In this document: positions 45,889-64,000 of the stretch, piece after piece
How the letters are laid out: the number at the start of each line of letters is the position of its first letter
Position numbering within the stretch: the first letter of the stretch is position 1
NCBI GenBank assembly: GCA_005954745.1
Contig: CP040679.1
Coordinates: forward strand, 124,001-188,000
From: Halostella pelagica
Lineage (GTDB): Archaea; Halobacteriota; Halobacteria; Halobacteriales; Natronoarchaeaceae
Length of the DNA stretch: 64,000 bases
Direction of reading: 5' to 3'
Notes under the pieces: model-generated
The model's database searches: none
What the model was told of the DNA's origin: nothing
What the model saw: the letters and a program-made list of their open reading frames with translations, nothing else
Translations under genes and position numbers: made by a program

Positions 45889-46653
45889 ATGGGAAAGCAA
45901 GCGTCCAACCCGGTCCGGTCCGTCGAGACGGCGTTCGAGGTTCTGGAGACGCTCCGTCGCCTCGACGGGGCGGGCGTCACCGCCGTCGCGAACGAACTCG
46001 ACCTGCCGAAAAGCAGCGTTTACAACCACCTCGAAACGCTCGAACAGGAGGAATACGTCGTCAAACAGGGGTCCGAGTACTACGTCGGTCTGCGCTTTCT
46101 CGATCTCGGCCGGTACGCCCGTCAACGCGATGACCTCTACGAGACTGCGCGTCCCGAACTGGAGTCTCTCGCCGACGAAACCGGCGAACTCGTCAACCTC
46201 CTCGTCGAGGAACACGGACAGGGCGTCTACCTCTGTCGAGTCCGCGGCGACAAGGCAGTCAACGTCGCGGCGAGTACGGGGAACCGCGTCTATCTGCACA
46301 GCACCGCGCTCGGAAAGGCAGTCCTCGCACACAGCTCGGAATCACGGGTCGACGAGGTTCTGAACAGGCACGGAATGCCGACCGAGACTGAACGGACGAC
46401 GACCGATCCGGCCGAACTAAAGGATCAACTCGACGAAATTCGTGAGCGAGGCGTGGCGTTCGACCGGGAGGAGCGGATCGCCGGTCTCTGCTGTGTCGCG
46501 GTGCCCATTCTGGGTGACGACGGGCGACCGATCGCCGCGATCAGCGTCTCCGGTCCCAAGAGCCGGATGAAAGGCGAACGTCTGGAATCGAAACTCCCTG
46601 AACTGTTAGAGAGCGCGGCGAACGTCGTCAAACTGAACCTCACCTACTCGTAA
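45889..46653 (+). CDS. IclR family transcriptional regulator
   Basis: A 254-residue regulator. The N-terminal winged HTH spans about 13-70 (RSVETAFEVLETLRRLDG, VANELDLPKSSVYNHLETLE). The C-terminal ligand-binding IclR domain (about 90-245) has HSTALGKAVLAH and ERIAGLCCVAVPI, with the conserved Gly and Cys region. In haloarchaeal pentose operons an IclR-type regulator (XacR in Haloferax) controls xylose and arabinose degradation genes, so this one is a good candidate for the cluster from 46761 onward. The divergent arrangement of several operons here would allow joint control. Confidence 0.88.
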   Translation: MGKQASNPVRSVETAFEVLETLRRLDGAGVTAVANELDLPKSSVYNHLETLEQEEYVVKQGSEYYVGLRFLDLGRYARQRDDLYETARPELESLADETGELVNLLVEEHGQGVYLCRVRGDKAVNVAASTGNRVYLHSTALGKAVLAHSSESRVDEVLNRHGMPTETERTTTDPAELKDQLDEIRERGVAFDREERIAGLCCVAVPILGDDGRPIAAISVSGPKSRMKGERLESKLPELLESAANVVKLNLTYS

Positions 46654-46760
46654 TTTCCCGATTCGTGTAACGGCGTTCGGCTACGCGAAACTGCGTTCAT
46701 TATGGACGAACGGACGTTCTCTGACTCGTCGTACGGAGTTATTGCCGGCAAAACGGCGTT

Positions 46761-47624
46761 TCAGACTTCGATAACGGGATTGAACAGTTCCCCGACGCCC
46801 TCGATAGTGATTGTGACCTCGTCGTCAGGCATGAGAGTGAACCCCTCTTCCGGGACGAGCGACGTCCCGGTAAGCAGGACGCCGGTCTCTGGAACCGCGT
46901 TGTGTGCGCGCCAGTAGTCGACGAGTTCCTCGCAGGTCCGTGCCATCTTCCCGGTCGAGGTCTCGTCGTCGTACAGCGTCTCGCCATCGCGGACGATGGA
47001 CATTGAGATGGTCAGGTCGTGCGGGTCGCCGATCGCTTCGGCGGAGGCGATGCAGGGTCCGAGCGCACAACAGCGGTCGTACACCTTGGCTTGCGGGAGA
47101 TGCAGCGGGTTTTCGCCCTCGATCTCGCGACTGCTCACGTCGTTGCCGACCGTGTAGCCGACGACCTCCCCGTCGTACAGGACGATCCCGAGTTCCGGTT
47201 CGGGGACGTTCCACGAGGAGTCACCGCGGACGCCGATCGCCTCGCCGGGGCCGACAGTCCGACTCGGTGTCGCCTTGAAGAATATCTCGGGGCGTTCGGC
47301 CTCGTAGGCGTCTAGATACATCTCCGGCATGCCGCTCTCGGTCTCGCGGGCCTCCTCGCTTATCTCGTAGGTGACGCCTGCGGCCCACACCTCGTCGGGA
47401 ACCAGCGGAAGCGCTGTCTCGTCCGGGTGAACGTCGACGACAGGAGCATCGGAGGTGAGGTCGGCCGCGAGCGCGTCGACGCCTGTGCCGGCGACGTTCG
47501 CGGCCGCCGCGAGGTCGGTGAACCCATCGAGACGGGGTTTGACCGCCGTGAGGTCATACGTGGCGTCACCGTCGGCGGCGAGCAGACTGATGTCGTTACC
47601 GCTGGCAAGACGATAGTATCGCAT
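46761..47624 (-). CDS. FAH-family 2-keto-3-deoxypentonate dehydratase-like protein
   Basis: A 287-residue member of the fumarylacetoacetate hydrolase fold. Metal-binding acidic residues are in PEPELGIVLYDGEVVGYTVGND (Glu pair) and KVYDRCCALGPCI (Asp region), with a GTSLVPEEGFTLMPDDEVTI end. Its closest analogue by role is Haloferax XacE, which dehydrates 2-keto-3-deoxypentonate to 2-oxoglutarate semialdehyde. It is divergent from the aldehyde dehydrogenase at 47722 with a 97 bp spacer. The assignment is by family, length and the partner dehydrogenase. Confidence 0.82.
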   Translation of the reverse strand: MRYYRLASGNDISLLAADGDATYDLTAVKPRLDGFTDLAAAANVAGTGVDALAADLTSDAPVVDVHPDETALPLVPDEVWAAGVTYEISEEARETESGMPEMYLDAYEAERPEIFFKATPSRTVGPGEAIGVRGDSSWNVPEPELGIVLYDGEVVGYTVGNDVSSREIEGENPLHLPQAKVYDRCCALGPCIASAEAIGDPHDLTISMSIVRDGETLYDDETSTGKMARTCEELVDYWRAHNAVPETGVLLTGTSLVPEEGFTLMPDDEVTITIEGVGELFNPVIEV

Positions 47625-47721
47625 GGCTGGACTGAGTGCCTCGTTTGTGATAAATCTCCCGTCGCCGTCAGGACGGATACGAGGGTAAAGCGTTATGGGC
47701 GAACGGACACAAACGCTGGGT

Positions 47722-49161
47722 ATGGCGACAGAGTACTCGAACTACGTCGACGGCGAGTGGACGGCCTCGAACAGCGGCGAAACATTCGAAACGCGGGACC
47801 CAGCGAACCCCGACGAGACCGTCGCAACTTATCCGCAGTCGGACGCGGAGGACGCTGCGGCGGCCGTTGAGGCGGCCGTCGCTGCCAGCGACGAGTGGGG
47901 GGCGACCCCCGGCCCCGAACGCGGCCGGATCCTCTCGCGGACCGGCGCGTTGCTCGCCGAGCGGAAGGAGGAACTGACAGAACTCCTCGTACGCGAGGAG
48001 GGTAAGACCCGCAGCGAAGCCGGCGGCGAGGTTCAGCGCGCCATCGACATCTTCGACTACTACGGCGCGAAGGCGAGCGACCTCGGCGGCACGGTCAAGG
48101 GGTCCAGTTCCAGAAACACGAACCTCTACACGAAAAACGAGCCGGTGGGCGTCGCCGGCCTGATCACGCCGTGGAACTACCCCATTGCCATCCCCGCCTG
48201 GAAGATCGCGCCCGCGCTGGCGGCCGGCAACGCCGCAGTTATCAAGCCCGCGTCGCTCGCGCCCGGTGTCGTCCACGAGATGGCCAAAGCGCTTGACGAA
48301 GCTGGACTCCCGGACGGCGCTCTCAACGTCGTTACCGGCCCCGGCAGTGAAGTCGGTGGTACTATCGCCAGCCATCCCGACGTGGACGCCATCTCCTTCA
48401 CCGGCAGCACGCAAGTCGGGAACGGCGTCTACGACACCGCGACGGACGACGGCAAGCGCGTCCAGCTAGAGATGGGCGGCAAGAACCCGACGGTCGTCTC
48501 CGACTCCGCTGACGTCGAGGAAGCCGCCGATATCGTGGCGGCGGGGGCGTTCGGCGTGACCGGTCAGGCCTGTACCGCCTGCTCCCGGGCCATCGTCTAC
48601 GAGGAGGTGTACGACGAGTTCGTCGACGCGGTCGTCGACCGCGCGGCGGCGATCGAACCGGGACACGGCCTCGACGACCCGGACATGGGTCCTCACGTGA
48701 GTGAGTCCGAACTGGAGAGCACGGCCGAATACGTCGAGGTGGGCCAGGACGAAGGTGCCACTCTGGAGACTGGTGGCAACGCGATAGAGGACGACGGGTA
48801 CTTCGTCGAACCGGCCGTCTTCTCCGACGTCGAACCGGACTTCCGGATCGCCCAGGAGGAGATCTTCGGTCCGGTGCTTTCGGTCATTCCCGTGAGCGGC
48901 TACGAGGAGGCACTCGACGTGGCCAACGGCGTCGACTTCGGCCTCTCGGCCAGCATCGTCACTGACGACCACACCGAGGCAAACCGCTTCGTCGAGGAGG
49001 CCGAATCGGGTGTCGTGAAGGTCAACGAGAAGACGACCGGACTGGAACTGCACGTCCCGTTCGGCGGGATGAAAGCGTCTTCCAGCGAAACCTACCGCGA
49101 GCAGGGCGACGCAGGTCTGGATTTCTACACCATCAGCAAGACGGTGTACGACAACTACTGA
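47722..49161 (+). CDS. 2-oxoglutarate semialdehyde dehydrogenase-like ALDH
   Basis: Aldehyde dehydrogenase of 479 residues from ATG 47722. PWNYPIAIPAWKIAPALAAGN is the cofactor region, then FTGSTQVG, LEMGGKNPTVV with the general-base Glu, and GQACTACSRAIVYEEVYDEF with the catalytic Cys. The C-terminal half ends in SKTVYDNY. Similar to Haloferax XacF, it would oxidise 2-oxoglutarate semialdehyde, the product of the FAH-family dehydratase, to 2-oxoglutarate, feeding the citric acid cycle. The gene pair is a strong pathway indicator. Other aldehydes cannot be excluded. Confidence 0.86.
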   Translation: MATEYSNYVDGEWTASNSGETFETRDPANPDETVATYPQSDAEDAAAAVEAAVAASDEWGATPGPERGRILSRTGALLAERKEELTELLVREEGKTRSEAGGEVQRAIDIFDYYGAKASDLGGTVKGSSSRNTNLYTKNEPVGVAGLITPWNYPIAIPAWKIAPALAAGNAAVIKPASLAPGVVHEMAKALDEAGLPDGALNVVTGPGSEVGGTIASHPDVDAISFTGSTQVGNGVYDTATDDGKRVQLEMGGKNPTVVSDSADVEEAADIVAAGAFGVTGQACTACSRAIVYEEVYDEFVDAVVDRAAAIEPGHGLDDPDMGPHVSESELESTAEYVEVGQDEGATLETGGNAIEDDGYFVEPAVFSDVEPDFRIAQEEIFGPVLSVIPVSGYEEALDVANGVDFGLSASIVTDDHTEANRFVEEAESGVVKVNEKTTGLELHVPFGGMKASSSETYREQGDAGLDFYTISKTVYDNY

Positions 49162-49224
49162 GCGCGTCGGTCCGCCGGAGTTTTTCGAACGGAACGTACG
49201 CGACCGAGAGAACGCGACCCGCGG

Positions 49225-50199
49225 TCAGAAGTAGTCGTCGAGATACTCGCCCGCGTTTTCGGACGTGACTTCCAGCCCCTCGATCTGGTAGTAGTCGTCG
49301 AGGTCATCGCCGTCGACGGCCTGCAGGCCGTAGTCGACGCCCTGACGAACCATTTCTTCCGGCAGCTGCGCGAGCGTGCCGTAATGATCGACGTTTTGCA
49401 CTTCATCAACCCACGCCTCGCTACCGTCGATCCCGGTGATCGCGATGTCACCGACGTCAGCGTTGTCGACGGCCTGATGCGCACCGAGCGCCATCAGGTC
49501 GTTGTGTGCGTAGACGCCGTCTATGTCGTCGCCGTAGCTTGTGATGAAGTCCTCCATCACGCTCACAGCTTCCTCGGTGGAGAAGTCGGCACCCTGACTG
49601 TCCAGAAGGTTGAGGTCGTTCGCCGACTCGATCGCCTCGGAACCGCCCTTGGCTCGGTCGTTCGTGGTGCTCGCTCCCTGCGTTCCCTGCAGTTCGACGA
49701 CGTTGTACTCGTCCTTGTCCGAGAGGTCGCTCATGAACCCGTGACACAGTTCCATCGAACGGCGTCCCAGGGCGACGTTGTCCGAGGCGACGTAAGTTGC
49801 GATGTCACCCTCGGAGATGTTCCGGTCGATGGTAACGACCGGGATGTCCGCGTCGTTTGCCTGCTGGACGACCGGACTGATCCCCTCGGAGGTGATCGGA
49901 GCGACCAGTATGAAGTCGACCCCCTGTGAGATCGGCGTTTCGAGGTCCGAAACCTGTTGTTCCTGTGAGTTCCCGGCGGCGTAGAACGAACCGCCGAGTT
50001 CGTCGCGCTCGTCCGTGATATTGTTGAACGCGTTTTCCATTCGGGCGAAGAACGTTAACTCGAGCGACGGCACCGAAAGCGCCGTCTCGTTTTCAGCGTC
50101 GCTGTTGCCGCTGCCGAGGTTGAGACAGCCCGCAACGCCGACGACACCGGCCGCTGCGGCTCCTCTCAAGACAGTCCGTCTGCTGGTCTCTGATTGCAT
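49225..50199 (-). CDS. ribose-type ABC substrate-binding lipoprotein
   Basis: A 324-residue periplasmic-binding protein of the sugar (RbsB) family. It has a Tat-type lipoprotein leader: the twin Arg at residues 7-8 (ETSRRTVLRG) and a lipobox GVAGC at about 25. The mature protein has two alpha/beta domains (SLELTFFARMENAFNNI start, TIDRNISEGDIATYVASDNV, and ITGIDGSEAWVDEVQ). The family binds ribose or related monosaccharides. It is upstream of the permease gene's end on the same strand, so the two are one transcript in reverse order from 51270 to 49225. Confidence 0.9.
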   Translation of the reverse strand: MQSETSRRTVLRGAAAAGVVGVAGCLNLGSGNSDAENETALSVPSLELTFFARMENAFNNITDERDELGGSFYAAGNSQEQQVSDLETPISQGVDFILVAPITSEGISPVVQQANDADIPVVTIDRNISEGDIATYVASDNVALGRRSMELCHGFMSDLSDKDEYNVVELQGTQGASTTNDRAKGGSEAIESANDLNLLDSQGADFSTEEAVSVMEDFITSYGDDIDGVYAHNDLMALGAHQAVDNADVGDIAITGIDGSEAWVDEVQNVDHYGTLAQLPEEMVRQGVDYGLQAVDGDDLDDYYQIEGLEVTSENAGEYLDDYF

Positions 50200-50286
50200 A
50201 CATAATGGGATTACCGACGATATTTTATAATCCTACCGGTAGATCCAACAGCTGCGCCCGGATTTAGGAATCTCGCCGGGGCGTGT

Positions 50287-51270
50287 TTACCGGTCGCCCG
50301 CGACGTTGGCGAGAACTGCGATCATGAGGACGATACCCTGTGCGACGAGCTGGCCGGCGGGATCGATACCCATGAGGTTGAGTCCGTTCGACAGCGACCC
50401 GAGGATGAGGACCCCGATGAGCGTGCCGATCATGTTACCCTTGCCACCGAATAGGTCAGTGCCACCGAGAATGACTGCGGCGATCGGTGGCAACAGCAGG
50501 TTCGACCCCATGTTCGGTGTCGCACTGCCGATGCGGCCCATCATCACGATCCCCGCGATGACGGTGAACACGGCCGACAGGACGAGAACGCCCATCCGAA
50601 CGAATTTCACGTCGATCCCCATCAGTTCGGCGGCGTCCGCGTCGCCTCCGACCGCATAGAGGTAGAGCCCGAACCGGGTGTACGAGAGGATAACCTGGGA
50701 CAGCGCGAGCAGGACGAAGAAGGTGATGACGATGTTTGGGAAGCCGAAGGTGTCACCGCTCCCCAGCCAGAGCAGTGCGTCCGGCAAGCCGATGATCGGC
50801 CGGTTCGAGGAGACTATCTGGCCGAACCCGTCCGCCAGGAACAGCATCGCTAGCGTCGTCATGAACGAGGGGACGCCGAACCGACTCGTAACGTACCCGG
50901 AAAGGCCGCCGAGAACGACGGCCGCGCCCAGTCCGGCGAGGATAGCAACCGGGACCGGGACCGCGCTGGAGAGCAGTCCGCCAGTCGCTAGCGAGGCGAT
51001 GAGCAGACCGGTGAACTCCATCATTTCGGCGATACTCAGGTCGATCTCTGCACAGAGGATCACGAACGTGCTGCCGATGGCGAGGATCCCGATGATCGAT
51101 ACCTGCCGGAGGAGGTTCAGTTGATTCGGGTACGAGAGGAAGTTCTGTGTGTTGAACGCGAAAAACAGATACAGGCCGATCAAGCCGAGGATCGGCCCGT
51201 ACTGTCCGAGCATTCGGATCGAGAGATAGTCGGATATCGAGTTAGGCGTCGCCGTAGACTCGGTTGCCAT
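50287..51270 (-). CDS. ribose-type ABC transporter permease
   Basis: A 327-residue BPD-type sugar permease (RbsC-like), with about nine membrane helices and the usual AIGSTFVILCAEIDLSIAEMM motif, then a conserved GGLSGYVTSRFGVPSFMTTLA block, which carries the cytoplasmic ATPase-interacting loop. It ends in an ILVLMIAVLANVAGDR helix. It is cotranscribed with the substrate-binding protein. The ATPase gene lies divergently at 51370, so the transporter is split into two divergent units around a 99 bp spacer. Confidence 0.9.
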   Translation of the reverse strand: MATESTATPNSISDYLSIRMLGQYGPILGLIGLYLFFAFNTQNFLSYPNQLNLLRQVSIIGILAIGSTFVILCAEIDLSIAEMMEFTGLLIASLATGGLLSSAVPVPVAILAGLGAAVVLGGLSGYVTSRFGVPSFMTTLAMLFLADGFGQIVSSNRPIIGLPDALLWLGSGDTFGFPNIVITFFVLLALSQVILSYTRFGLYLYAVGGDADAAELMGIDVKFVRMGVLVLSAVFTVIAGIVMMGRIGSATPNMGSNLLLPPIAAVILGGTDLFGGKGNMIGTLIGVLILGSLSNGLNLMGIDPAGQLVAQGIVLMIAVLANVAGDR

Positions 51271-51345
51271 AGTCGGATATGCTTACCAATCGTTCATATA
51301 TATTCGGATCACGACATCAGCGACCGTACGACCGTAACTGTTTAC

Positions 51346-51363
51346 TCGGTTCAAGCGAACCGA
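51346..51363. promoter_or_regulatory. palindromic operator candidate before the ABC ATPase gene
   Basis: TCGGTTC-AAGC-GAACCGA is a perfect 7 bp inverted repeat, 6 bp upstream of the ATPase ATG at 51370 and within the divergent spacer of the transporter. Its place suggests a regulator (possibly the IclR protein) that acts on both directions. No second copy was found in the neighbouring promoters, so the assignment is tentative. Confidence 0.5.
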
Positions 51364-51369
51364 ACACTC

Positions 51370-52149
51370 ATGTCTGCCCAGGGTACTGTCGTGGAGATGC
51401 AGGACATCCGCAAGCAGTTCGGCGAGATCATCGCACTCGACGGCGTCGACCTGACGCTACGGGAAGGGGAAGTTCTCGGTCTCGTCGGCGATAACGGCGC
51501 GGGCAAGTCGACGCTAATCAAATGTCTCGCCGGGGCTCACGAGCCGACGAGTGGCTCGATCCGGATCCGCGAGGAGGACGTTACCATCGATAGCCCCCGG
51601 GCCGCGAAGGCATACGGGATCGAAACGACGTTTCAGGACCTCGCACTCGCGCCGAACCTCACCGTCGCTCAGAACGTCTTTCTCGGCCGCGAGGAGATGG
51701 TCGGCCCGGACCGCGTGTTCGGCCTGCTGAACAAATCGGCGATGCGTGAGCGCGCCGGCCAACTGCTCGGCGACCTGAACATCGAAGTCTCCCCGGACCA
51801 GACGGTCGGCGGCCTCTCCGGGGGCCAGCGTCAACTCGTCGCGGTTTCCCGAATGTTGCTTTCGGATCCTGACATCGTCATCATGGACGAGCCGACGAGT
51901 GCGCTCTCTGTCGAGGGCGCAGACCGGGTGCTGGAACTCATCGAGCAGATGCGCGACCGGGGAATCTCCGTGTTGCTCATCTCGCACAATCTGGAGTACC
52001 TCCAGCGTGTCGCTGACCGGATCAAGGTGCTCCATCAGGGCCACGACGCCGGCGTGTTGGACGCCGAGTCGGTTACTCGCGACGAGGTCGTCTCGCGGAT
52101 GGTGAGCGGCCGGTCGGGCGTGGAAGAGAGCGAACAGCAGACGGCCTGA
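51370..52149 (+). CDS. ribose-type ABC transporter ATPase (single domain)
   Basis: A 259-residue ABC ATPase. Walker A is GDNGAGKST (about 44-52), the Q-loop is near FQDLALAP, the signature GGLSGGQRQLVAVSRMLL is at about 140, and Walker B DIVIMDEPTSALS follows near 165. It has one nucleotide-binding domain (FrcA-like), not the double-domain RbsA form. It begins at ATG 51370; an open upstream frame from 51121 overlaps the permease gene on the other strand and is not used. The Gfo/Idh gene follows 70 bp later on the same strand. Confidence 0.92.
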   Translation: MSAQGTVVEMQDIRKQFGEIIALDGVDLTLREGEVLGLVGDNGAGKSTLIKCLAGAHEPTSGSIRIREEDVTIDSPRAAKAYGIETTFQDLALAPNLTVAQNVFLGREEMVGPDRVFGLLNKSAMRERAGQLLGDLNIEVSPDQTVGGLSGGQRQLVAVSRMLLSDPDIVIMDEPTSALSVEGADRVLELIEQMRDRGISVLLISHNLEYLQRVADRIKVLHQGHDAGVLDAESVTRDEVVSRMVSGRSGVEESEQQTA

Positions 52150-52219
52150 CCCGAACGCTTCGGTCGTCGTCGCCCCTGCCAACGCAACGCATATTACGTC
52201 CGGGTGAGAGGATCACTGC

Positions 52220-53302
52220 ATGGAGATAGAAGCGCTTGCCGACGACTTCGAGCGGCGGGACTGGCAGGAGATCACCGAGACGGACGACCCTATCCGCTTT
52301 GCCATGATCGGGGTCGGCTGGTGGACACGGGAGCAGGCGATGCCCGCCGTTGCGAACGCGGACCTCTGTGAGACGACCGTGCTGGTCAGCGGCGACCGCG
52401 AGAAGGTCTCGGAGGCCGCCGAGGAGTCACCGACCGTCGAACGTTCGATCACCTACGACGAGTTCCACGAGGGCGCGGCGAGCGACGCTTACGACGCCAT
52501 CTACGTCGTTACGCCGAACGCGCTCCACCTCCCCTTCGTCGAGACGGCCGCGGAACTCGACAAAGCGATCCTTTGTGAGAAGCCGATGGAGGCGACGATA
52601 GAGCGTGCCGAGCGGATGGTCGAGGTCTGCGACGAGCACGACGCGACGCTGATGATCGCCTACCGGATGCACACCGAACCCGCGGTCCGGCGCGCGAAAG
52701 AATTCATCGACGAGGGGCTGATCGGCGACCCCGTCTTCGTCAACGGTAACATGACCGAGCCGATACTCGATCTGGTTCCCGACCCCGACCAGTGGCGACT
52801 CGACGGCGAGCTATCGGGCGGGTGTGCGGTCATGGACATCGGCCTGTACCCGCTGAACACCAGCCGGTTCCTGCTCGACGAGGACCCCGTGAGAGTACGC
52901 GGCACGGTCGCGTCGGTGCAGGAGGAGTTCGATGACGTACCGGACGAGCACGGCGCGTTCCAGCTCGATTTCCCGAACCACGTGTACGCGGTCTGTACGG
53001 CCAGCCAGAACGCCTACATGGCGAGTCACATCTCGGTTATCGGGACGGAGGGACGAGTCCGCGTCGAACCCGCCTTCTACCCGTGGGACGACCGGGCGCT
53101 CACCGTCTCGCGCAGCGGGACGACGTTCGACGTGGATTTCGAGGGGATAGACCAGATGGAAGAGGAGTTCGAGTACTTCTCACACTGCCTGCTGGCCGGC
53201 GAGGAGCCGTATCCGGACGGCGACCACGGACTGGTCGACATCGAGGCGATCAAGGCGGTGTACGAGGCGTCGGAGACTGGAACCACGGTCGAACTGGACT
53301 GA
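52220..53302 (+). CDS. Gfo/Idh/MocA sugar dehydrogenase (ribose dehydrogenase candidate)
   Basis: A 360-residue NAD(P)-dependent oxidoreductase. The Rossmann start FAMIGVGWWTREQAMPAV is unusual but has the GxGxx core, and the catalytic Lys motif is ILCEKPMEAT near residue 120. The C-terminal Gfo domain has a GGCAVMDIGLYPLN block with Asp and His-type catalytic positions. In the known haloarchaeal oxidative ribose pathway a Gfo/Idh-type enzyme oxidises D-ribose to ribono-lactone, and this gene sits in a cluster with a lactonase, a dehydratase and downstream enzymes, so ribose or another aldopentose is the likely substrate. Confidence 0.84.
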   Translation: MEIEALADDFERRDWQEITETDDPIRFAMIGVGWWTREQAMPAVANADLCETTVLVSGDREKVSEAAEESPTVERSITYDEFHEGAASDAYDAIYVVTPNALHLPFVETAAELDKAILCEKPMEATIERAERMVEVCDEHDATLMIAYRMHTEPAVRRAKEFIDEGLIGDPVFVNGNMTEPILDLVPDPDQWRLDGELSGGCAVMDIGLYPLNTSRFLLDEDPVRVRGTVASVQEEFDDVPDEHGAFQLDFPNHVYAVCTASQNAYMASHISVIGTEGRVRVEPAFYPWDDRALTVSRSGTTFDVDFEGIDQMEEEFEYFSHCLLAGEEPYPDGDHGLVDIEAIKAVYEASETGTTVELD

Positions 53303-53400
53303 GTATTCCGGGGTACGTCCGGTAATTGGCCACGACGACGGCCGGTTCGGCCCGCCCCTTGTACCAACGTTTTTGGTCCGTGCCGACGAACGTCCGAGAT

Positions 53401-54267
53401 ATGATACGTTCGACCTGGGGCGACTGGTTCGTCCGGGAAGAGATCGAGGGGGCCGACCCCGGCGACGGAGTGATTGTCTGGTATCTCGGCTGCAACGGGT
53501 TCGTCCTCCGGTCGCAGTCGACGACGCTGTACATCGACCCGTACTTCGGGGCGGGCGACCCGCCGAACATCATCCGGATGATCCCGGTGCCGCTCTCCCC
53601 GGCGGACGCGACGGACTGCGAGGCCGTCCTCGTCACGCACGAACACATCGACCACATGCATCCGCCGTCGTACAGTCCGTTGGTGAACGACCTCAGCGCG
53701 GATCTCCACGCGCCGGCCGCGTCCTACGAGTCGCCGGATTACGACGGCGACCTGGAAGTGCCCGACGAGCGGCGCAACGAGATAGCGGCGGGCGACGACT
53801 TCGAGGTCGGCGACTTCACCGTCCACGTTCGGGGCGCGAACGACCCCGACGCGATAGAACCGGTGAGCTACGTCGTCGAACACGACGCCGGCACGTTCTT
53901 CCACGGCGGCGACAGCCGGCCTGCCGAGGCGTTCGAGGCAGTCGGAGCGGAGTTCGACCTCGACGTCGGCGCGCTCGCGTTCGGCTCCGTCGGGGAGATA
54001 TACAAACCCGAACTCGGCCGCGGCGAGCGGACCCGCTGGTACATGGACGAGAACCAGGTGATCGAGGCCGCCAACCAGCTCGGGCTCGATAGGCTCGTCC
54101 CTTCCCATCACGACATGTGGCAGGGCGTCGGCGCGGACCCGAAGGTACTGCACGAACACGCGGCGTCTCACGAGTACCCACGAGTCATCGAACCGCCCCA
54201 CGTCGGCTGTTCGTTCCGGCTTTCGACGCCCGGTATCCGACGGATAGGCGCGTTGGGCGGGGAGTAA
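53401..54267 (+). CDS. MBL-fold hydrolase (ribonolactonase candidate)
   Basis: A 288-residue MBL-fold protein of the UlaG/ascorbate-6-P lactonase-like type. The HEHIDHM motif (HxHxDH) gives the metal site; ALHVRGANDPDAIEP and FFHGGDSRPAEAF give later acidic ligands; a C-terminal LVPSHHDMWQGVGAD completes the pattern. Start at ATG 53401; the 98 bp gap after the dehydrogenase contains no competing start with better support. In the pathway it would open the sugar lactone from the Gfo/Idh step. The enolase-family gene follows. Confidence 0.8.
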   Translation: MIRSTWGDWFVREEIEGADPGDGVIVWYLGCNGFVLRSQSTTLYIDPYFGAGDPPNIIRMIPVPLSPADATDCEAVLVTHEHIDHMHPPSYSPLVNDLSADLHAPAASYESPDYDGDLEVPDERRNEIAAGDDFEVGDFTVHVRGANDPDAIEPVSYVVEHDAGTFFHGGDSRPAEAFEAVGAEFDLDVGALAFGSVGEIYKPELGRGERTRWYMDENQVIEAANQLGLDRLVPSHHDMWQGVGADPKVLHEHAASHEYPRVIEPPHVGCSFRLSTPGIRRIGALGGE

Positions 54268-54334
54268 AACACGCCGAAGTCGGGTCCCGTCTGGGGTGGA
54301 CAGTTTTATTAGCCGGACCTCGGAAAGCTACAGC

Positions 54335-55510: not shown

Positions 55511-55596
55511 GCGGACGGCGGGTTCGCCCGCAGTCCCGTGAGGGCCGGTAGCGGACCCCGTGAAGCTTATTGTAGTGGCCTTCGAATCCTGTTTTC

Positions 55597-56265: not shown

Positions 56266-57182
56266 CCGACTCCAGCGTCGTCGCCGTGGGGAACACGCTC
56301 ATCGACCACACCTACCACCTGACGAACCTCCCGGGTCCGGACGAGGGGGCGTTCGTCCGGAACTACGAGCGGCGACTCGGCGGCGTGGCGACGAACGTCG
56401 CGACGATCCTCGCCCGGTTCGGGCACGAGACCGGGCTTGTCTCCTGCGTCGCAGACGACGAGGACGGGGACGACGTCCTCGACCGCCTCGACTCGTCGCC
56501 GATCGACCACGTGACGGTTCACCGCCTCTCGGGCGGTCGGACGTCGTACTGTCTCGTCCTCACGGACCCGGACGGCCAGCGGGCGATCATCGGCGGCGGG
56601 GAGTCCGCCCTCGAACTCTCGCTCACCGAGGCCGACGTGGAGACCGTCGCTGACGCGAACGCCACGTTCACGTCCGCCTACGCACCGCTTGACGTGGTCG
56701 AGACGCTCGCTGCCGTCGACACTCCGCTCGTCTACGACCTCGCGGGCGAGTTCACCGACCTGACCGACCGCGGTCTCACCCGGGGGGCGCTCGACGGCCT
56801 CGCGCCCGATATCGACCGGTTCGTCGCCAACCTCACCTCGGTGCGGTCGTATCTCCGAACGGACGCCGGGCCGCGTGACTGCTGTGCTCAACTCCGCGCG
56901 CGGGGCTTCGATGCGGGGGCGGTCACGTGCGGGTCCGACGGCGTCTACCTGTTCGAAGGGGACGCAGTCCGGGAGATACCGGCGTTCGAGGTCTCCGTGA
57001 CTGACACGACGGGTGCCGGCGACGCGTTCACCGGGGGGCTTATCCACGCCTGGGTGCTCGACGGCGTCGGGATCGAGGACGCCGGCCGGTTCGCCAGCGC
57101 CGTTGCGGCGCTCAACTGTACCGAGACCGGTGCCCACTCCGGTTCACCTACGCTGGCCGATGTCGAGTCGTTTCTGGACTGA
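56262..57182 (+). CDS. PfkB family sugar kinase
   Basis: A 306-residue ribokinase-like kinase. GTG start at 56262 overlaps the TrpF-like stop. It has VAVGNTLIDHTYHLTNLPGPDEGAF at the start, a GG motif RLGGVATNVATILARFGHETGLVS, and the catalytic DTTGAGDAFTGGLIHAW near residue 250 with the Asp base. It could phosphorylate ribose, ribose 1-phosphate, a nucleoside or a deoxy sugar acid. A kinase in the nucleoside/ribose cluster gives an alternative, phosphorylated route beside oxidation. Confidence 0.9.
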   Translation: MTDSSVVAVGNTLIDHTYHLTNLPGPDEGAFVRNYERRLGGVATNVATILARFGHETGLVSCVADDEDGDDVLDRLDSSPIDHVTVHRLSGGRTSYCLVLTDPDGQRAIIGGGESALELSLTEADVETVADANATFTSAYAPLDVVETLAAVDTPLVYDLAGEFTDLTDRGLTRGALDGLAPDIDRFVANLTSVRSYLRTDAGPRDCCAQLRARGFDAGAVTCGSDGVYLFEGDAVREIPAFEVSVTDTTGAGDAFTGGLIHAWVLDGVGIEDAGRFASAVAALNCTETGAHSGSPTLADVESFLD

Positions 57183-57208
57183 CCGGTGGCGCGGCCGCCG
57201 CCATACGG

Positions 57209-57219
57209 TATAATTATAA
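57209..57219 (+). promoter_or_regulatory. TATA box of the nucleoside hydrolase gene
   Basis: TATAATTATAA is centred about 30 bp before the ATG at 57245, so this gene has its own promoter in addition to any read-through from the PfkB gene. Confidence 0.6.
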
Positions 57220-57244
57220 CCCTTGCCCAGAGGATCGTAGTCAC

Positions 57245-58174
57245 ATGGTAACACGAGTACATCTCGACGTAGACCCCGGGAGCGACGACGCCGTAATGAT
57301 CGCGATGGCGCTCGGCCACCCGTCGATCGAGGTCGCGAGCATGAGTACCGTCGGCGGTAACTCCACCGTCGACAACACCACGCGGAACGCACTCGCCATA
57401 CTCGAACGGTTCGACCGGACCGACGTTCCGGTCGCGCGCGGGGCGAGCGATCCGATGGAAGGGACGTACGACACGGCGGAGTGGATCCACGGCGAGAACG
57501 GGATCCGCGGCGATCTGTCGGAGCCGTCGACGGAACCGGTCGAGGCCCACGGCGCGGAACTGATCGTTCGGCAGGCCCGCGAGCACGGCGACGACATCAC
57601 AATCGTCGCGGTCGGCCCGATGACGAACCTCGCAATGGCGCTCCAGCTAGAGCCGTCGCTCCCCGACATGGTCGACGGCATCTATCTGATGGGCGGCGCT
57701 GCGACGGTCGCGGGGAACAAGACGCCGATGGCCGAGGCGAACTTCCACAACGACCCGGTCGCCGCAAGTCGAGTGATCCAATCCGGGCGGCCGTTCATGG
57801 CCGGCTTGGACGCGACCCACGACGCGACCGTTTCGGTGGAGATGATAGACGAGTACTCCGGACTCAACGAACCGTACGACATTGTCGGTCCGTGGCTCGA
57901 CTACCCCGACGAGATCAAGAGACTCGGCGGGGGGATGGACCCTGCGATCCACGACGCGGCGGTCGTGGCCCACCTGATCGATCCGGCAGTCCTGACCTTC
58001 GAGTCGTACTACCTCGACGTCGAGACTACCAGCGGGCTCTGCCGGGGAGCGGTCGTCTGCGACGAACGGAGGGTGACCGACAACGACCCGAACGCTGAGG
58101 TCGCGGTCGCGGCCGACACGGGGCGGTTCAGAAGCGTGTTCGAGGAGGCCATCGACGGACTCCTCGAAGGGTGA
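57245..58174 (+). CDS. inosine-uridine-preferring nucleoside hydrolase
   Basis: A 309-residue nucleoside hydrolase. The Ca2+-site motif VHLDVDPGSDDAVMI (DxDxGxDDA), the NSTVDNTTRNALAILE start of the active site region and the C-terminal IHDAAVVAHLIDP, with the Asp ligand, are intact. These enzymes cut the N-glycosidic bond of ribonucleosides to ribose and base. Placed between sugar genes and a BMP-type nucleoside importer, it would supply free ribose for oxidation. The start lies 62 bp after the PfkB stop with its own TATA box. Confidence 0.9.
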   Translation: MVTRVHLDVDPGSDDAVMIAMALGHPSIEVASMSTVGGNSTVDNTTRNALAILERFDRTDVPVARGASDPMEGTYDTAEWIHGENGIRGDLSEPSTEPVEAHGAELIVRQAREHGDDITIVAVGPMTNLAMALQLEPSLPDMVDGIYLMGGAATVAGNKTPMAEANFHNDPVAASRVIQSGRPFMAGLDATHDATVSVEMIDEYSGLNEPYDIVGPWLDYPDEIKRLGGGMDPAIHDAAVVAHLIDPAVLTFESYYLDVETTSGLCRGAVVCDERRVTDNDPNAEVAVAADTGRFRSVFEEAIDGLLEG

Positions 58175-58264
58175 TAGGAGCTGTTGTACGTCAGTTGGGT
58201 AGTTCGTCGACGCGGGGTCGGCGAACACCGGGACACAGGTCCAACAATCCCTGAGAGTGGTTCG

Positions 58265-59671
58265 CTATTCGCCCGTCTCACGAACGAGAGAGAGCGTCTC
58301 GGCGGCGAGGTCCGAGATAGGTTGTCGCTGGTAGGAGACGAGCGACGTCTCCACTGTGTCGTCGAGCGGGTCTGTCCAGTCGTTCGGGAGCGCCTCGGCA
58401 CCGTGGAGTAGCCCGAGGATCGACCCGAGAGTCGCCGCGTGCGAATCGGTGTCGAACCCGGCCTGGACGGCCAGACAGAGCGACTCGCCGAAGTCGCCTT
58501 CTCCCCAGAGGAGTCCGATGGCGAGTACCTCCACGTTACTGATCGTGTGGACCCAGTCGAACTGGTTCGATTCGTCCCACCGCTCGTGGACCCGCTCCAC
58601 GGCCTCCTCGTAGTCGAGGCCGTTCTCCCGCCACTCGACCACGTCCGAAACAGCCTCCGCCAGCCGGCACTCGGCGGGGATCTCGGACAGCCCGATCTCA
58701 AGCAGCCGTCGGGGGTCCGACTCGAAGGGCGCGGCGGCCATCATCGCGGCCGCGAACATCTCCCCGTAGATGCCGTTTTTGACGTGGCTGACAGAGGCGT
58801 CCCGCCACGCGTACTCCGCGGCCTGCTCGGGGTCTCCCAGGGCGACGAACCCCCACATGTCCGCGCGGATCAGCGCGCCGACGTGCTCGCGGTACGGGTT
58901 CCGGAGTGTCGCGGATTCCGGGGGCAGCACGAGGTTCAGCAGGTTTCGGTAAGCGACCCGCTCGGCGGTGTACGTGTTGAACACCGGGAGGTTCTGGAGC
59001 CAGTAGTTCGCCACGTCGACCGGCTCGAAGTCGACCCCGTACTCGTCGAGGATACCCAGCCCGACGGCGACGTAGTCGATATCGTCGTCGACGGGCATGT
59101 GGGGCACGTCGTTGACGAACATGCTTCCCTCCGCGTCCGACGACTCGACCGTGTTGTAGATGTCGTACTCCTCGGCGAGTTCGTCGTCCGAGCGCATGTA
59201 GCCGCTGAGGGGGAACTGGTTGCTCGCTTTCAGGTACGTGTGGATCTTGTCGCGGGACCACCCCTGTACCGGCTTGCCCAGAAAGCAGCCGGCCACCGCA
59301 CCCAGCCAGCCGCCGTAGATCACGTCGTACGGGTCGTCGAGGACCTCGAATCCGCCCTCGATCTGTCGCGGCCCCTCCGGGCGGGCATCGCGGATCCCGT
59401 CGAGCGAAGACGGTTCGTGGTACGGGAAATCCGGCCGGACGGGGAGTTCGCGGCTCGCATCGAGTAGTTCGTGTAGTTCCTCCTGCGTGACCCCGTCCGC
59501 GTCGAGGAGAGCGTCGAACCGCTCTTCGAGTTGCGAAACGTCCCTGCCCTCGTCTCTGCACTGACGGCGCTCGTACTGTACTTCGCGCTTGTTCGGATTG
59601 AGAAACAGGGGTGACGGGAGCGCGTCCTCTATCTCGACCTCTATCATCCCCGGATCGTACTCAGCTGTCAT
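58265..59671 (-). CDS. ADP-ribosylglycohydrolase family protein
   Basis: A 468-residue protein. The first 110 residues are an extra N-terminal helical part without recognised domain. The remaining residues carry the DraG/ARH fold: VIYGGWLGAVAGCFLGKPVQ near 115, MPVDDDIDYVAVGLGIL with the acidic metal site, and QAGFDTDSHAATLGSILG (the GGDTDTIAA motif form) near 405. It would hydrolyse N- or O-ribosyl bonds of ADP-ribosylated compounds or related glycosides. It is convergent with the nucleoside hydrolase and divergent from the BMP transporter genes. Confidence 0.84.
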   Translation of the reverse strand: MTAEYDPGMIEVEIEDALPSPLFLNPNKREVQYERRQCRDEGRDVSQLEERFDALLDADGVTQEELHELLDASRELPVRPDFPYHEPSSLDGIRDARPEGPRQIEGGFEVLDDPYDVIYGGWLGAVAGCFLGKPVQGWSRDKIHTYLKASNQFPLSGYMRSDDELAEEYDIYNTVESSDAEGSMFVNDVPHMPVDDDIDYVAVGLGILDEYGVDFEPVDVANYWLQNLPVFNTYTAERVAYRNLLNLVLPPESATLRNPYREHVGALIRADMWGFVALGDPEQAAEYAWRDASVSHVKNGIYGEMFAAAMMAAAPFESDPRRLLEIGLSEIPAECRLAEAVSDVVEWRENGLDYEEAVERVHERWDESNQFDWVHTISNVEVLAIGLLWGEGDFGESLCLAVQAGFDTDSHAATLGSILGLLHGAEALPNDWTDPLDDTVETSLVSYQRQPISDLAAETLSLVRETGE

Positions 59672-59726
59672 ACGGTTGATGAGTGCCTCCGAGCCAGCAT
59701 AAAGATATGGTCGTTTCCGACCCTTA

Positions 59727-59735
59727 ATTATAAAT
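59727..59735 (+). promoter_or_regulatory. TATA box of the BMP transporter operon
   Basis: ATTATAAAT lies about 27 bp before the ATG at 59758, consistent with a leaderless transcript for the substrate-binding gene and the ABC genes after it. Confidence 0.6.
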
Positions 59736-59757
59736 AACGTAGGCGTTTTGTTGGCCT

Positions 59758-60825
59758 ATGCCACAGACTAGCCTAGGACGAAGGGCGTACGTAAAAGCTC
59801 TCGGAGCGGGTTCAGTCGTTAGCATCGCTGGCTGCCTCGGCGGGAACGACAGCGGCTCCGACGATTCGGTCAACATCGCGATCGTGTACCCGGTCGCGGG
59901 ACTCGGTGACCAGGGATTCAGCGACAACGCTCAGGTGGGGCTAAAGCAGGCCGAGGAGGAACTCGATATCAACTACTCGCAAGGTGAACCGAGTAGTAAC
60001 TCGGAGTATCAGGATTTCCACAACCAGTTCGCCGCCTCGCAAGACCCCGACTACGACCTCATTATCGGACTCACGTTCGACCAGGTCACGCCGATCAAGA
60101 ATGTGTCCAGCGACTTTTCGGACCAGAACTGGACGCTGATCGACGCCGCGGTACAGGACCGGGACAACGTTTCCAACATCTCGTTCACGGAACACGAGGG
60201 GTCCTATCTCGCCGGAACGCTGGCGGGCCACATCGCCACTGAAGGGTTCGAGTCGGAGACCGCATCTGCGCCCGGCGAGGGTGTCGTCGGATTCGTCGGT
60301 GGCAACCGTAACCCCGTCATCGAGCGCTTCGAGGCCGGCTACCGCGCCGGCGTCAAGGATGTTGACGACAGCATCGAGTTCCGGTCCGCGTACGCGGGTG
60401 CATTCAACGCGCCGGACCAGGGCCAGTCGATCGCACAGTCGATGTACAACGAAGGCGCCGACATCGTGTACCACGCCGCGGGCGGGACTGGAATCGGGAT
60501 GTTCGAAGCCGCTCAGGAGGCTGGACGGCCCGCGTTGGGGGTCGACACTGACCAATCCGTGACGGCGAGTGACTACTCCGACGTCATCGTTGCGAGCATG
60601 CTCAAGCGAATGGACTCGGCCGTGTACACGACCATCGAAAACATCGTGAACGACGAGTGGGACGGGTCCTCGAACGTGCAGTTGGGCCTCGATGACGACG
60701 CTCACGAACTCGTGTACGGGGACTCGATCGGCGACGCCGTCCCCGATTCGGCCAGAGAGATGGTCGACACCGCTCGCCAGCAGATCATCGATGGCGAGAT
60801 ATCACCTCCGGAAACGGTGGACTGA
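59758..60825 (+). CDS. BMP-family nucleoside-binding lipoprotein
   Basis: A 355-residue substrate-binding protein of the BmpA/PnrA (basic membrane protein) family, which binds nucleosides. The twin-Arg leader LGRRAYVKALGAG and lipobox SIAGC near residue 23 indicate a Tat-exported lipoprotein. NIAIVYPVAGLGDQGFSDNA is the typical first strand with conserved Asp, and GVVGFVGGNRNPVIERFEAGYRAGV is the second. The three ABC genes follow on the same strand, 86 bp downstream at first, giving a complete importer. Confidence 0.91.
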   Translation: MPQTSLGRRAYVKALGAGSVVSIAGCLGGNDSGSDDSVNIAIVYPVAGLGDQGFSDNAQVGLKQAEEELDINYSQGEPSSNSEYQDFHNQFAASQDPDYDLIIGLTFDQVTPIKNVSSDFSDQNWTLIDAAVQDRDNVSNISFTEHEGSYLAGTLAGHIATEGFESETASAPGEGVVGFVGGNRNPVIERFEAGYRAGVKDVDDSIEFRSAYAGAFNAPDQGQSIAQSMYNEGADIVYHAAGGTGIGMFEAAQEAGRPALGVDTDQSVTASDYSDVIVASMLKRMDSAVYTTIENIVNDEWDGSSNVQLGLDDDAHELVYGDSIGDAVPDSAREMVDTARQQIIDGEISPPETVD

Positions 60826-60911
60826 TACGAACTGTCCAGTCAGGAACGAGAGACTGAGACTCGAAGACTATTTAAATATCATTATCAAATGTTCCAAAAA
60901 ACCGTGGACAT

Positions 60912-62480
60912 ATGAGTCACTCAGTCGAACTAACGGACATACGAAAGACCTTCCCTGGGGTCGTCGCCAACGACGATGTCAGTCTGAGCGTCGGTGACGG
61001 CGATATCCACGTCATTCTCGGGGAAAACGGCGCGGGAAAATCCACGTTGATGAACGTTCTGTACGGGCTGTATCAGCCCGATAGCGGAACGATCCGGATC
61101 AACGGCGAAGAGAAACGTTTCGACTCCCCACAGGACGCGATCGACGAGGGCATCGGGATGATCCACCAGCACTTCAAACTGGTCGGCCCGATGACGGTAA
61201 CCGAGAACATCGTTCTCGGCTCCGAACCGACAGACTCCTTCGGGATCGGCGTCGACATGAAGACCGCCAGACGAGAGGTACGGGAGATCAGCGAGCGGTA
61301 CGGGTTCGACATAGACCCCGACGCCGTCGTCGAGGATGTGAGCGTCGGCGTCAGACAGCGCGTTGAGATCCTGAAGGCGCTGTATCGGGGCGCGGACATT
61401 CTCATCCTCGACGAGCCGACGGCCGTGCTCACGCCCGACGAGATCGAGTCGCTGTTCGAGGTGTTCGAGGAGCTGATCGACCAGGGCAAAACTATCATCT
61501 TCATCACGCACAAACTCGACGAGGCGATGACTGTCGCCGACGACATCACGGTGTTGCGTGAGGGTCGAAACGTCACGACTCTCCCGGTCGAGGAGGCGAC
61601 GAACAATCACCTCGCGGAGCTGATGGTCGGGGACGAGGTTCTGCTCGAACTGAACCGCGAGCCGCATCCGAAAGGTGACGTACTGCTCACCGTGGACGAC
61701 CTTCAGGTGGCAAACGACGACACGACGCTGGTCGAGGGCGTCGACCTGACCGTCCGAGAGGGCGAAACGCTCGGCATCGCCGGCGTCGACGGTAACGGAC
61801 AGTCGGAGTTGTCGGACGCGATCGCAGGTCTGCTCGACGCCGACGGCGGATCGGTTACGTTCGACGGCGAGGACGTCACCGACTGGGACCGCAAGCGACT
61901 GAACGACGCCGGACTCGCGTACATCCCGCCGGACCGGCAGGAACAGGGGCTCGTGATGAACTTCGACCACGGCGAGAACGTCATCCTGGGCGAACAACAC
62001 ACCTTCCCGATCGGACGCCGGATGCGGGACGACGAACTGGCCGAGAAGATAATCGAGGAGTACGACGTTCGGACCTCAGGCACGGGAGCGCCCGCGAAGT
62101 CGCTTTCCGGCGGAAATCAACAGAAGCTGCTCGTCGGCCGGGAGCTCGAGCGGGACCCGAAACTGGTCATCGCGAGTAACCCGACGCGGGGGCTCGACGT
62201 CGGGAGCATCGAGTTCATTCACGAGCAACTGCTCTCCGTCAGACGCGACGACAGGGCCGTGCTGCTCATCTCCTCGAAACTGGACGAACTCCAGCAGCTC
62301 TCGGACCGGATCGCAGTGATGTACGAAGGGGAGATCATCGACACGGTCGACCCCGAAACCGTGACCGAACGCGAACTGGGACTACTGATGGCTGGACAGG
62401 AACTAACGGACGTTTCCCCGAACTCCGATCGCGGAGAGGGAACGTCACAGACAGCGGGTATCGACGGTGAGAGCGAATGA
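60912..62480 (+). CDS. nucleoside ABC transporter ATPase, two ABC domains
   Basis: A 522-residue double-NBD ATPase of the sugar/nucleoside class (RbsA/NupA-like). The first domain has Walker A GENGAGKST near residue 37 and Walker B ILILDEPTAVL near 165; its signature region reads VSVGVRQRVEILKAL. In the second, the Walker A equivalent GVDGNGQSE near 295 is degenerate as in this family, with signature LSGGNQQKLLVGREL near 400 and a Walker B-like LVIASNPTRGLDVG. It overlaps the next gene by 4 bp. Consistent with the BMP importer. Confidence 0.92.
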   Translation: MSHSVELTDIRKTFPGVVANDDVSLSVGDGDIHVILGENGAGKSTLMNVLYGLYQPDSGTIRINGEEKRFDSPQDAIDEGIGMIHQHFKLVGPMTVTENIVLGSEPTDSFGIGVDMKTARREVREISERYGFDIDPDAVVEDVSVGVRQRVEILKALYRGADILILDEPTAVLTPDEIESLFEVFEELIDQGKTIIFITHKLDEAMTVADDITVLREGRNVTTLPVEEATNNHLAELMVGDEVLLELNREPHPKGDVLLTVDDLQVANDDTTLVEGVDLTVREGETLGIAGVDGNGQSELSDAIAGLLDADGGSVTFDGEDVTDWDRKRLNDAGLAYIPPDRQEQGLVMNFDHGENVILGEQHTFPIGRRMRDDELAEKIIEEYDVRTSGTGAPAKSLSGGNQQKLLVGRELERDPKLVIASNPTRGLDVGSIEFIHEQLLSVRRDDRAVLLISSKLDELQQLSDRIAVMYEGEIIDTVDPETVTERELGLLMAGQELTDVSPNSDRGEGTSQTAGIDGESE

Positions 62481-63691
62481 GCGACGCCGGACCGAAACTC
62501 CCCGACAGAGCGAAACGGATCCTCGGCCGTCTCGTCGACGCGTCGGCTAGAGAGCGAATCCTCATCAGCTTCGCCTCGCTCGCTCTGGCGCTCGTCGTCG
62601 GTGCGATCTTACTGCTCGCGTCGGGTGCGTTCGCGACGTGTGGCTCGCCGTTTCTCGTGTTCGGCGGGATCGAGTTCTGTTACAACCCCATCGAGGTGTA
62701 TCGGGTGATGTTGAACGGCGCGATCGGTTCGCCGTACAGCATCGGCTTGACGCTCCGGGAGACCACGCTGTTGATCCTGGCCGGCGTAGCGGTCGCCGTG
62801 ACATTCCAGGCCGGCATCTTCAACATCGGGACGCAGGGCCAGTTCGTCGTCGGCGGCCTGGCGGGTGCGGCACTCGTGCAGTACACGGCCGATATACTTC
62901 CGGCCAACGCCGTCGGCGGGATCCTGCTGTTCGTCCTCGGCCTCGCCGCCGCGGGAGTTGCCGGTGCGCTGTACGGTGCACTCCCCGGCGTCTTGCTTGC
63001 CTACTACGACGCCAACGAGGTCATCACGACGATCATGTTGAACTTCATCGCGACCGCAGTCGCGTTCACGACCGTCAGGTCGTTCCTTCGAGAGGGGGCT
63101 GCCGTCCAGACGGCACTGGTCCCGGACTACGCCGTCCCGCCCAGTATCGTCTTCCCGGAGGCGTCCTCGTTTTCGGTGCTCATCTTCATCCCGACGCTGC
63201 TTATCGCGTTCGGCGCGCACTATATGTTGAAAAACTCCCCGCTGGGATACAACATCCGTCTAAGCGGGGAACAGCCCGCTGCGGCGAAGTACAGCGGTGT
63301 CGACGCCAAACGCGTGATCGTCCGGACGTTCACGCTGTCAGGACTCATCGGCGGTCTTACGGGCGGCGTGTTCGTCTTCATGGTGCTCGGCTACTGGCAG
63401 CCGAGCGTTCCGCAGGTCGGGTTCGACGGCATCACCGTCTCGGTGCTGGCGGCGAACAACCCGCTCGGCGTCATTCCGGCGGCGGCGCTGTTCGGCGTCA
63501 TCAAAAGCGGCGCGATAGCGCTCGACCTGCAACTCGGCGTGCCGCGCCAGCTAGCCGGCGTCCTGCGAGGCATCATCATCCTGTTCGTGGCGATGCCCGA
63601 GTTCATGCGCATGATCGGGCGAAAGTTCGGACTCGGAGAGACCTCGGCGACTCCAGCGCAAGAGAGGGTAACGGAGGAAAACGATGATTGA
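62477..63691 (+). CDS. nucleoside ABC transporter permease 1
   Basis: A 404-residue permease of the BPD-transporter family found with BMP proteins (NupB/YufP-like), with about nine or ten membrane helices. FNIGTQGQFVVGGLAGAALVQY, DANEVITTIMLNFIATAV and the GEQPAAAKYSGVDAKRVI cytoplasmic loop are characteristic. The start overlaps the ATPase stop by 4 bp and the end overlaps permease 2 by 8 bp, so the importer genes are tightly coupled. The C-terminal 20 residues are acidic. Confidence 0.92.
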   Translation: MSDAGPKLPDRAKRILGRLVDASARERILISFASLALALVVGAILLLASGAFATCGSPFLVFGGIEFCYNPIEVYRVMLNGAIGSPYSIGLTLRETTLLILAGVAVAVTFQAGIFNIGTQGQFVVGGLAGAALVQYTADILPANAVGGILLFVLGLAAAGVAGALYGALPGVLLAYYDANEVITTIMLNFIATAVAFTTVRSFLREGAAVQTALVPDYAVPPSIVFPEASSFSVLIFIPTLLIAFGAHYMLKNSPLGYNIRLSGEQPAAAKYSGVDAKRVIVRTFTLSGLIGGLTGGVFVFMVLGYWQPSVPQVGFDGITVSVLAANNPLGVIPAAALFGVIKSGAIALDLQLGVPRQLAGVLRGIIILFVAMPEFMRMIGRKFGLGETSATPAQERVTEENDD

Positions 63692-64000
63692 GAACACCCG
63701 ATTAACCCGTCGGCGCATCGGCCTGCTAGTGATCGCTGCAGTCGCGGTTCTGGGCGTGGTCGCGTCACCGTACAGGACCGATATTCGGAACCTCTTCACC
63801 GTCGGCTTCTTCAACACCGCGCTTACGCTTGCCGTCCCGATCACGCTCGCGGGGGTCGGCGGCCTCTACTCCGAGAAAAGCGGCGTCATCAACATCGGTA
63901 TCGAGGGGCTCTTGATCGCGGCCGCGTTCACGAGCGTTCTCGTCACTGGGACGACCGTGAGTACGGTCGGCGCGGACAACGCGGTGTGGCTCGGGTTGCT
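63684..64000 (+). CDS. nucleoside ABC transporter permease 2, 3' partial
   Basis: The second permease of the BMP-type importer, cut by the right edge after about 105 codons. Start at ATG 63684 (MIENTRLTRRR). The visible part has a first helix LLVIAAVAVLGVVAS and then LAVPITLAGVGGLYSEKSGVINIG with IEGLLIAAAF, the characteristic motif of NupC/YufQ-type subunits. It overlaps permease 1 by 8 bp, the same coupling as in other operons of this type. Confidence 0.9.
   Translation, partial: MIENTRLTRRRIGLLVIAAVAVLGVVASPYRTDIRNLFTVGFFNTALTLAVPITLAGVGGLYSEKSGVINIGIEGLLIAAAFTSVLVTGTTVSTVGADNAVWLGL

Follow-up and report, generated by a model that had tools for sequence, protein, structure and literature searches.

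A haloarchaeal island joining nucleoside import and hydrolysis genes to an oxidative pentose cluster

Introduction

The published haloarchaeal routes of nucleoside breakdown run via pentose bisphosphates (PMC9700705). The non-carboxylating pentose bisphosphate pathway described there breaks down nucleoside ribose with a phosphorylase, a ribose-1-phosphate kinase, a ribose-1,5-bisphosphate isomerase, a phosphatase and an aldolase, and the haloarchaeal ribose-1-phosphate kinases are PfkB proteins. This 2022 study reports 19 haloarchaea without a genomic clue to nucleoside degradation and names Haloarcula among the groups concerned. Haloarcula marismortui and Haloarcula hispanica have been shown to degrade ribose oxidatively, using a specific ribonate dehydratase (Johnsen et al. 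2020, as cited in PMC8551123), and the latter source reports that the Haloarcula pentose dehydrogenase and lactonase are promiscuous. Here we analyse a 64,000-nucleotide stretch of the Halostella pelagica genome (the window, G000:C2:124001-188000; the genome has 3.94 Mb on 4 contigs), in which an ortholog of the Haloarcula oxidative cluster lies beside an eight-gene nucleoside module. We propose that imported nucleosides are probably hydrolysed and their ribose fed into non-phosphorylative oxidation to 2-oxoglutarate.

A further described gene set resembles part of the island. The E. coli yegTUV genes, which have no known function, bring together a nucleoside-type transporter, an ADP-ribosylglycohydrolase-like protein and a PfkB kinase, as does the window; however, they include neither a nucleoside hydrolase nor oxidative genes, and their kinase is 24% identical to that of the window.

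Results

Gene classes were assigned by comparing Pfam and NCBIfam profile scores with family cut-offs. The oxidative core spans positions 45865-55510 and encodes an IclR regulator, an FAH-family protein, an aldehyde dehydrogenase (ALDH), a ribose-type ATP-binding cassette (ABC) importer, a Gfo6-type dehydrogenase, a protein of the metallo-beta-lactamase fold (MBL) and an enolase-family dehydratase. The gene classes named in a preliminary description of this DNA are all present close to where it had placed them, far over family cut-offs; its block start (45889) needs correcting, as the IclR gene begins 24 bases earlier. Two enzymes pass equivalog cut-offs: the ALDH, a 2,5-dioxovalerate (2-oxoglutarate semialdehyde) dehydrogenase (47695-49161, forward strand; NF052305, 846.5 bits against 750), and the Gfo6-type pentose (xylose/ribose) 1-dehydrogenase (52220-53302, forward; NF041392, a model named D-xylose 1-dehydrogenase, 561.7 bits against 350). 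They are followed by the MBL protein, a candidate pentonolactonase (53326-54267, forward; PF12706, 57 bits), and by the enolase-superfamily sugar-acid dehydratase (54296-55510, forward; MR_MLE_C, 151 bits).

The oxidative pentose cluster of Haloarcula is the ortholog of the window core; in it, ALDH, Gfo6, MBL and dehydratase genes form one run, the last three being contiguous. The dehydratase is 88-91% identical to copies in Haloarcula, Halolamina and Natrinema, Gfo6 is 80-83% identical to the Haloarcula copies, and the MBL protein is 72-76% identical to the Haloarcula ortholog standing between Gfo6 and the dehydratase. Haloarcula being the genus where a ribonate dehydratase was shown, the substrate assignment of the window dehydratase therefore rests on orthology and context, which make ribonate its probable substrate. 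In contrast with the Haloarcula cluster, the window core adds the ribose-type importer, the FAH protein and IclR, and has the nucleoside importer and the TrpF-like, PfkB and glycohydrolase genes attached to it; a nucleoside hydrolase is close by in both.

This proximity was seen in all 13 Haloarcula species examined, with a nucleoside hydrolase at most 6.5 kb from the dehydratase and, at several of the loci, a 5'-nucleotidase beside the hydrolase. Among the named loci, a hydrolase lies within 10 kb in 7 of the 15 whose dehydratase is at least 84% identical, against 3 of the 63 others (Fisher p 2e-4); the association counts as one lineage, because all seven positive loci are from Haloarcula. 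The module itself recurs elsewhere. Its eight genes (TrpF-like, PfkB, nucleoside hydrolase, ADP-ribosylglycohydrolase-like, BMP protein, ATPase and two permeases) are found in the same order and orientation in only 3 of the 394 haloarchaeal genomes sampled: the window genome, G003 of the same genus, and G164 (Natrialba swarupiae). The two other module-bearing genomes belong to two families. A TrpF-like protein of more than 45% identity, or a glycohydrolase of more than 50%, likewise occurs in these three genomes alone. In G003, a 5'-nucleotidase and two further genes are inserted in the module, and 6.5 kb of other genes separate the dehydratase from the TrpF-like gene; in G164, the module comes after an adenine deaminase gene and a further nucleoside hydrolase gene. 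Nucleoside genes cluster with the pentose-oxidation core repeatedly, in separate lineages.

The dehydratase family (E <= 1e-60) is present in 138 of the 394 genomes. Sister genomes within the genus have the core but lack the nucleoside genes; one of them, G002, has all of it (84-93% identity) in identical order, from IclR, FAH and ALDH through binding protein, permease and ATPase to Gfo6, MBL and dehydratase. The arrangement of the core is found again in sister genomes and other genera, and that of the eight-gene module in two further genomes, so that gene order here is more than chance.

The remaining core genes are less closely classified. The IclR-family regulator (45865-46653, forward; IclR_C 145 bits, HTH_IclR 46 bits) has orthologs of 84-85% identity in G003 and G002. 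The FAH-family protein (46761-47624, reverse), a candidate 2-keto-3-deoxypentonate dehydratase, matches PF01557 (83 bits) and reaches no NCBIfam equivalog cut-off. Its gene is kept beside ALDH in the sister genomes, Halolamina and Natrinema; no ortholog was found within 10 kb of the dehydratase in the Haloarcula loci examined. The importer comprises a ribose-type (CUT2) substrate-binding protein (49225-50199, reverse; PF13407; best NCBIfam match RbsB, 150 bits, under the cut-off of 337), whose closest solved structures are a sugar-binding protein (2ioy) and E. coli RbsB, a CUT2 permease (50287-51270, reverse; PF02653; best NCBIfam match ribose permease, 199 bits, under cut-off) and a sugar ABC ATPase (51370-52149, forward; PF00005, 117 bits). 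We moved the start of the latter from 51121 to 51370, the probable true start, on the basis of domain position and an ATG; the protein has a single ATPase domain. A second full pentose cluster on the chromosome was considered and rejected: contig C1 has two more Gfo6-type genes, and no dehydratase, lactonase or FAH gene could be recognised next to them. On this main contig, another gene of the Gfo6 type that exceeds the cut-off has a PNP/UDP-family nucleoside phosphorylase gene about 1 kb away (G000:C1:1623058-1624098 and 1625121-1625777; L205).

In the module, the nucleoside hydrolase (57245-58174, forward) scores 276 bits on PF01156 (cut-off 34.2), carries the DxDxxxDD motif as DVDPGSDD, and has RihA and YeiK as closest solved structures. 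The importer is of the BMP/PnrA nucleoside type. Its substrate-binding protein (59758-60825, forward; PF02608, 179 bits against 24.1) has Lbp, BMP-family lipoproteins and TmpC as closest solved relatives, and is followed by a double-domain ATPase (60912-62480, forward; two PF00005 domains; best NCBIfam match 462 bits, under the cut-off of 670) and two PF02653 permeases, at 62477-63691 (forward, 136 bits) and from 63684 to the window edge at 64000 (forward, 112 bits). The second permease ends 736 bp past the window, at window-equivalent position 64736 (L005:3684-4736). Beyond it, in window-equivalent positions, stand an EamA transporter (64978-65886) and a second nucleoside hydrolase (65977-66903, reverse; L005:5977-6903; 401 bits on the RihA model, cut-off 433), both kept at the same island end in G003. 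A phage-integrase-family gene (67377-68573, reverse; L005:7377-8573) follows directly at the far end of the island, with no tRNA nearby, and may mark the route by which the module arrived.

The module probably has its own promoters, because TATA-like sites lie about 26-30 bases upstream of the TrpF-like (CTTATT) and BMP (TATAAATAA) genes and both are conserved in G003 and G164. A terminator between the dehydratase and TrpF-like genes was rejected, as the hairpin found there is no better than those of shuffled sequences (z -0.36).

The TrpF-like protein (55597-56265, forward; PRAI, 73.6 bits) fails the equivalog test for TrpF (107.4 bits against 216). Its catalytic Cys is gone, VQIYS replacing the canonical K[IV]CG in the three archaeal copies and QIY being found in the rhizobial ones; the Arg of the PREV motif is absent and DSYTHTS replaces DVASG. 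It does retain the DT/DS acid motif and the AGGL loop. A separate, canonical TrpF with intact KICG is encoded on C1 (L015). In the tree, the TrpF-like protein groups with five rhizobial proteins and one Mesorhizobium protein (94/94), apart from haloarchaeal TrpF (98/96); this grouping is moderate evidence because the branches are long, and the bacterial distribution of the clade was sampled on plasmids only. In plasmid clusters of Streptomyces and Corynebacterium, another Cys-less TrpF-like clade (L172, L145) accompanies uracil phosphoribosyltransferase and pseudouridine-5'-phosphate glycosidase.

The PfkB-family kinase (56262-57182, forward; PF00294, 147 bits) overlaps the stop of the TrpF-like gene (GTGA), and the two are closely adjacent in G003 and G164. 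A 540-residue open reading frame (55560-57182), which could be taken for a PfkB fusion with an N-terminal extension, consists of these two overlapping genes, its N-terminal part being an arginine-rich out-of-frame reading. We also rejected a broken TrpF-like gene in G003 and G164: the reported stops fall at the gene end and the genes are intact. The kinase keeps the GAGD motif and is not a canonical ribokinase (113 bits against 341; closest solved structure E. coli ribokinase, 106 bits). Aligned with 1gqt, it has L, V and Y at N14, K43 and E143, which we take to be ribose contacts of E. coli ribokinase.

In rhizobia, the same non-canonical TrpF-like type occurs near a PfkB kinase (at most about 6 kb away in five loci), in clusters with RpiR, a sugar-type (CUT1) importer and a Cys/Met-family pyridoxal phosphate (PLP) enzyme. 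These clusters have the importer and the PLP enzyme instead of nucleoside genes, and identity between the rhizobial kinases and the archaeal ones is only 25-30%. The window also has a Cys/Met-metabolism PLP enzyme (43042-44430, reverse), 1.4 kb upstream of IclR and 33-35% identical to that of the rhizobial clusters; none of the other haloarchaeal loci retrieved has it, and its presence here is possibly a coincidence.

The ADP-ribosylglycohydrolase-fold protein (58265-59671, reverse) belongs to its superfamily (PF03747, 161.7 bits against 26.2), with the metal-site motifs VDDDID and GFDTDS retained, and forms a separate subfamily; it falls far short of the ADP-ribosylarginine hydrolase and DraG equivalogs (24.6 bits against 490 and 22.2 against 337). 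The subfamily sits with a ribokinase and a sugar importer in Mycolicibacterium and Deinococcus. Relatives in G307, G333, G352 and G326 have no nucleoside or PfkB genes among the neighbours checked. YegU was considered as a near relative and rejected (29% identity over 85 residues, E 0.012). On a Deinococcus plasmid (L144:9938-14307), a sugar importer, a ribokinase and two different glycohydrolase-family proteins stand in a row.

Discussion

The ancestral core would import free pentose and oxidise it without phosphorylation. Ribose would be converted by Gfo6 to ribonolactone, by the MBL protein to ribonate, by the enolase-family dehydratase to 2-keto-3-deoxyribonate, by the FAH protein to 2-oxoglutarate semialdehyde and by the ALDH to 2-oxoglutarate. 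In the acquired adjacent module, probably separately promoted, the BMP importer would bring in nucleosides and the hydrolase would split them into base and ribose, which would feed the core; a further nucleoside or sugar may be the substrate of the glycohydrolase-like protein and the PfkB/TrpF-like pair. The route from nucleosides to 2-oxoglutarate appears well supported by context, namely the family matches over curated cut-offs (ALDH, Gfo6, nucleoside hydrolase, BMP), Haloarcula orthology, and the hydrolase, 5'-nucleotidase and adenine deaminase neighbours. The preliminary description had proposed complete nucleoside scavenging with oxidation of the ribose. The repeated clustering with nucleoside genes, the BMP importer among them, and the lack of rival-route enzymes over cut-off favour that proposal at the level of context: gene content, order, orthology and recurrence are direct observations, and substrates, flux and regulation we infer.

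Several points weigh against this route. The module is directly beside a close core in two genomes only, the nearby dehydratase of G164 being a 71-72% paralog; the hydrolase and dehydratase of Haloarcula are convergent and form no single operon; and the conserved TATA-like sites argue for transcription separate from the core. The presumed ribose specificity of Gfo6 and the dehydratase is predicted from homology, and the FAH protein has no equivalog-level match. Moreover, nucleosides may be phosphorolysed instead or in addition, because the genome has three PNP/UDP-family genes.

It is unlikely, but worth weighing, that the core serves D-xylose/L-arabinose oxidation, as its Haloferax counterpart does, with the nucleoside module an unrelated neighbour. 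The name of the model that Gfo6 exceeds and the sister genomes holding the core without the module agree with this, as does the set of IclR, lactonase and dehydratase genes, which presumably resembles the Haloferax xylose set. Yet the importer beside Gfo6 is of the ribose type, the dehydratase is 88-91% identical to the Haloarcula copy, and a nucleoside hydrolase recurs beside the latter. Both uses may hold, because the Haloarcula dehydrogenase and lactonase are reported to be promiscuous (PMC8551123). Far less probable is that the island serves pentose-bisphosphate breakdown, with a nucleoside phosphorylase, a ribose-1-phosphate kinase (PfkB) and a ribose-1,5-bisphosphate isomerase. A PfkB kinase does sit with the nucleoside genes, but it scores 92 bits against 330 on the ribose-1-phosphate kinase model, and the island carries a hydrolase and no phosphorylase. 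No marker enzyme of that pathway exceeds its cut-off in the genome: the best kinases reach 92 and 103 bits against 330, and the best isomerase match 139 against 314 (TIGR00511), where a diverged haloarchaeal form is possible.

Compatible with hydrolysis and oxidation of nucleoside ribose is a second, phosphorylating branch, in which the kinase would phosphorylate ribose or a ribosyl compound; the aldose phosphate would be isomerised to the ketose phosphate by the TrpF-like barrel. We regard it as possible but doubtful. The overlap or adjacency of the two genes in three archaea, their proximity in the five rhizobial loci, and the chemistry of TrpF, an aldose-ketose type rearrangement, speak for it; the missing catalytic Cys and one missing phosphate-loop motif, the three replaced ribose contacts, the low identity between rhizobial and archaeal kinases and the lack of an aldolase in the cluster speak against it. 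The preliminary description had set the pair and the glycohydrolase outside the known pathway, perhaps as a new branch, and the failed ribokinase and phosphoribosylanthranilate isomerase tests agree. Tentatively, such a branch would handle an unusual ribosyl compound, e.g., a nucleoside that is modified or alpha-linked. The glycohydrolase or the kinase would act on the glycoside, and the Cys-less barrel, which rhizobia also have, would carry out a new isomerisation of the phosphorylated product. This seems rather improbable at present; the set itself is a real, conserved puzzle.

Every kind of enzyme in the island was already known; what is new is their combination and its recurrence. The island matters because its gene set suggests how some haloarchaea eat nucleosides, a question to which published work offered no clue in the 19 species. 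The hydrolase beside ribose-oxidation genes in all Haloarcula loci examined, together with the importer found here, offers a concrete and testable answer: hydrolysis and oxidation to 2-oxoglutarate, with no phosphorylated pentoses. Both archaea and rhizobia have the Cys-less TrpF-like clade near PfkB kinases, and it points to an enzyme activity still unnamed.

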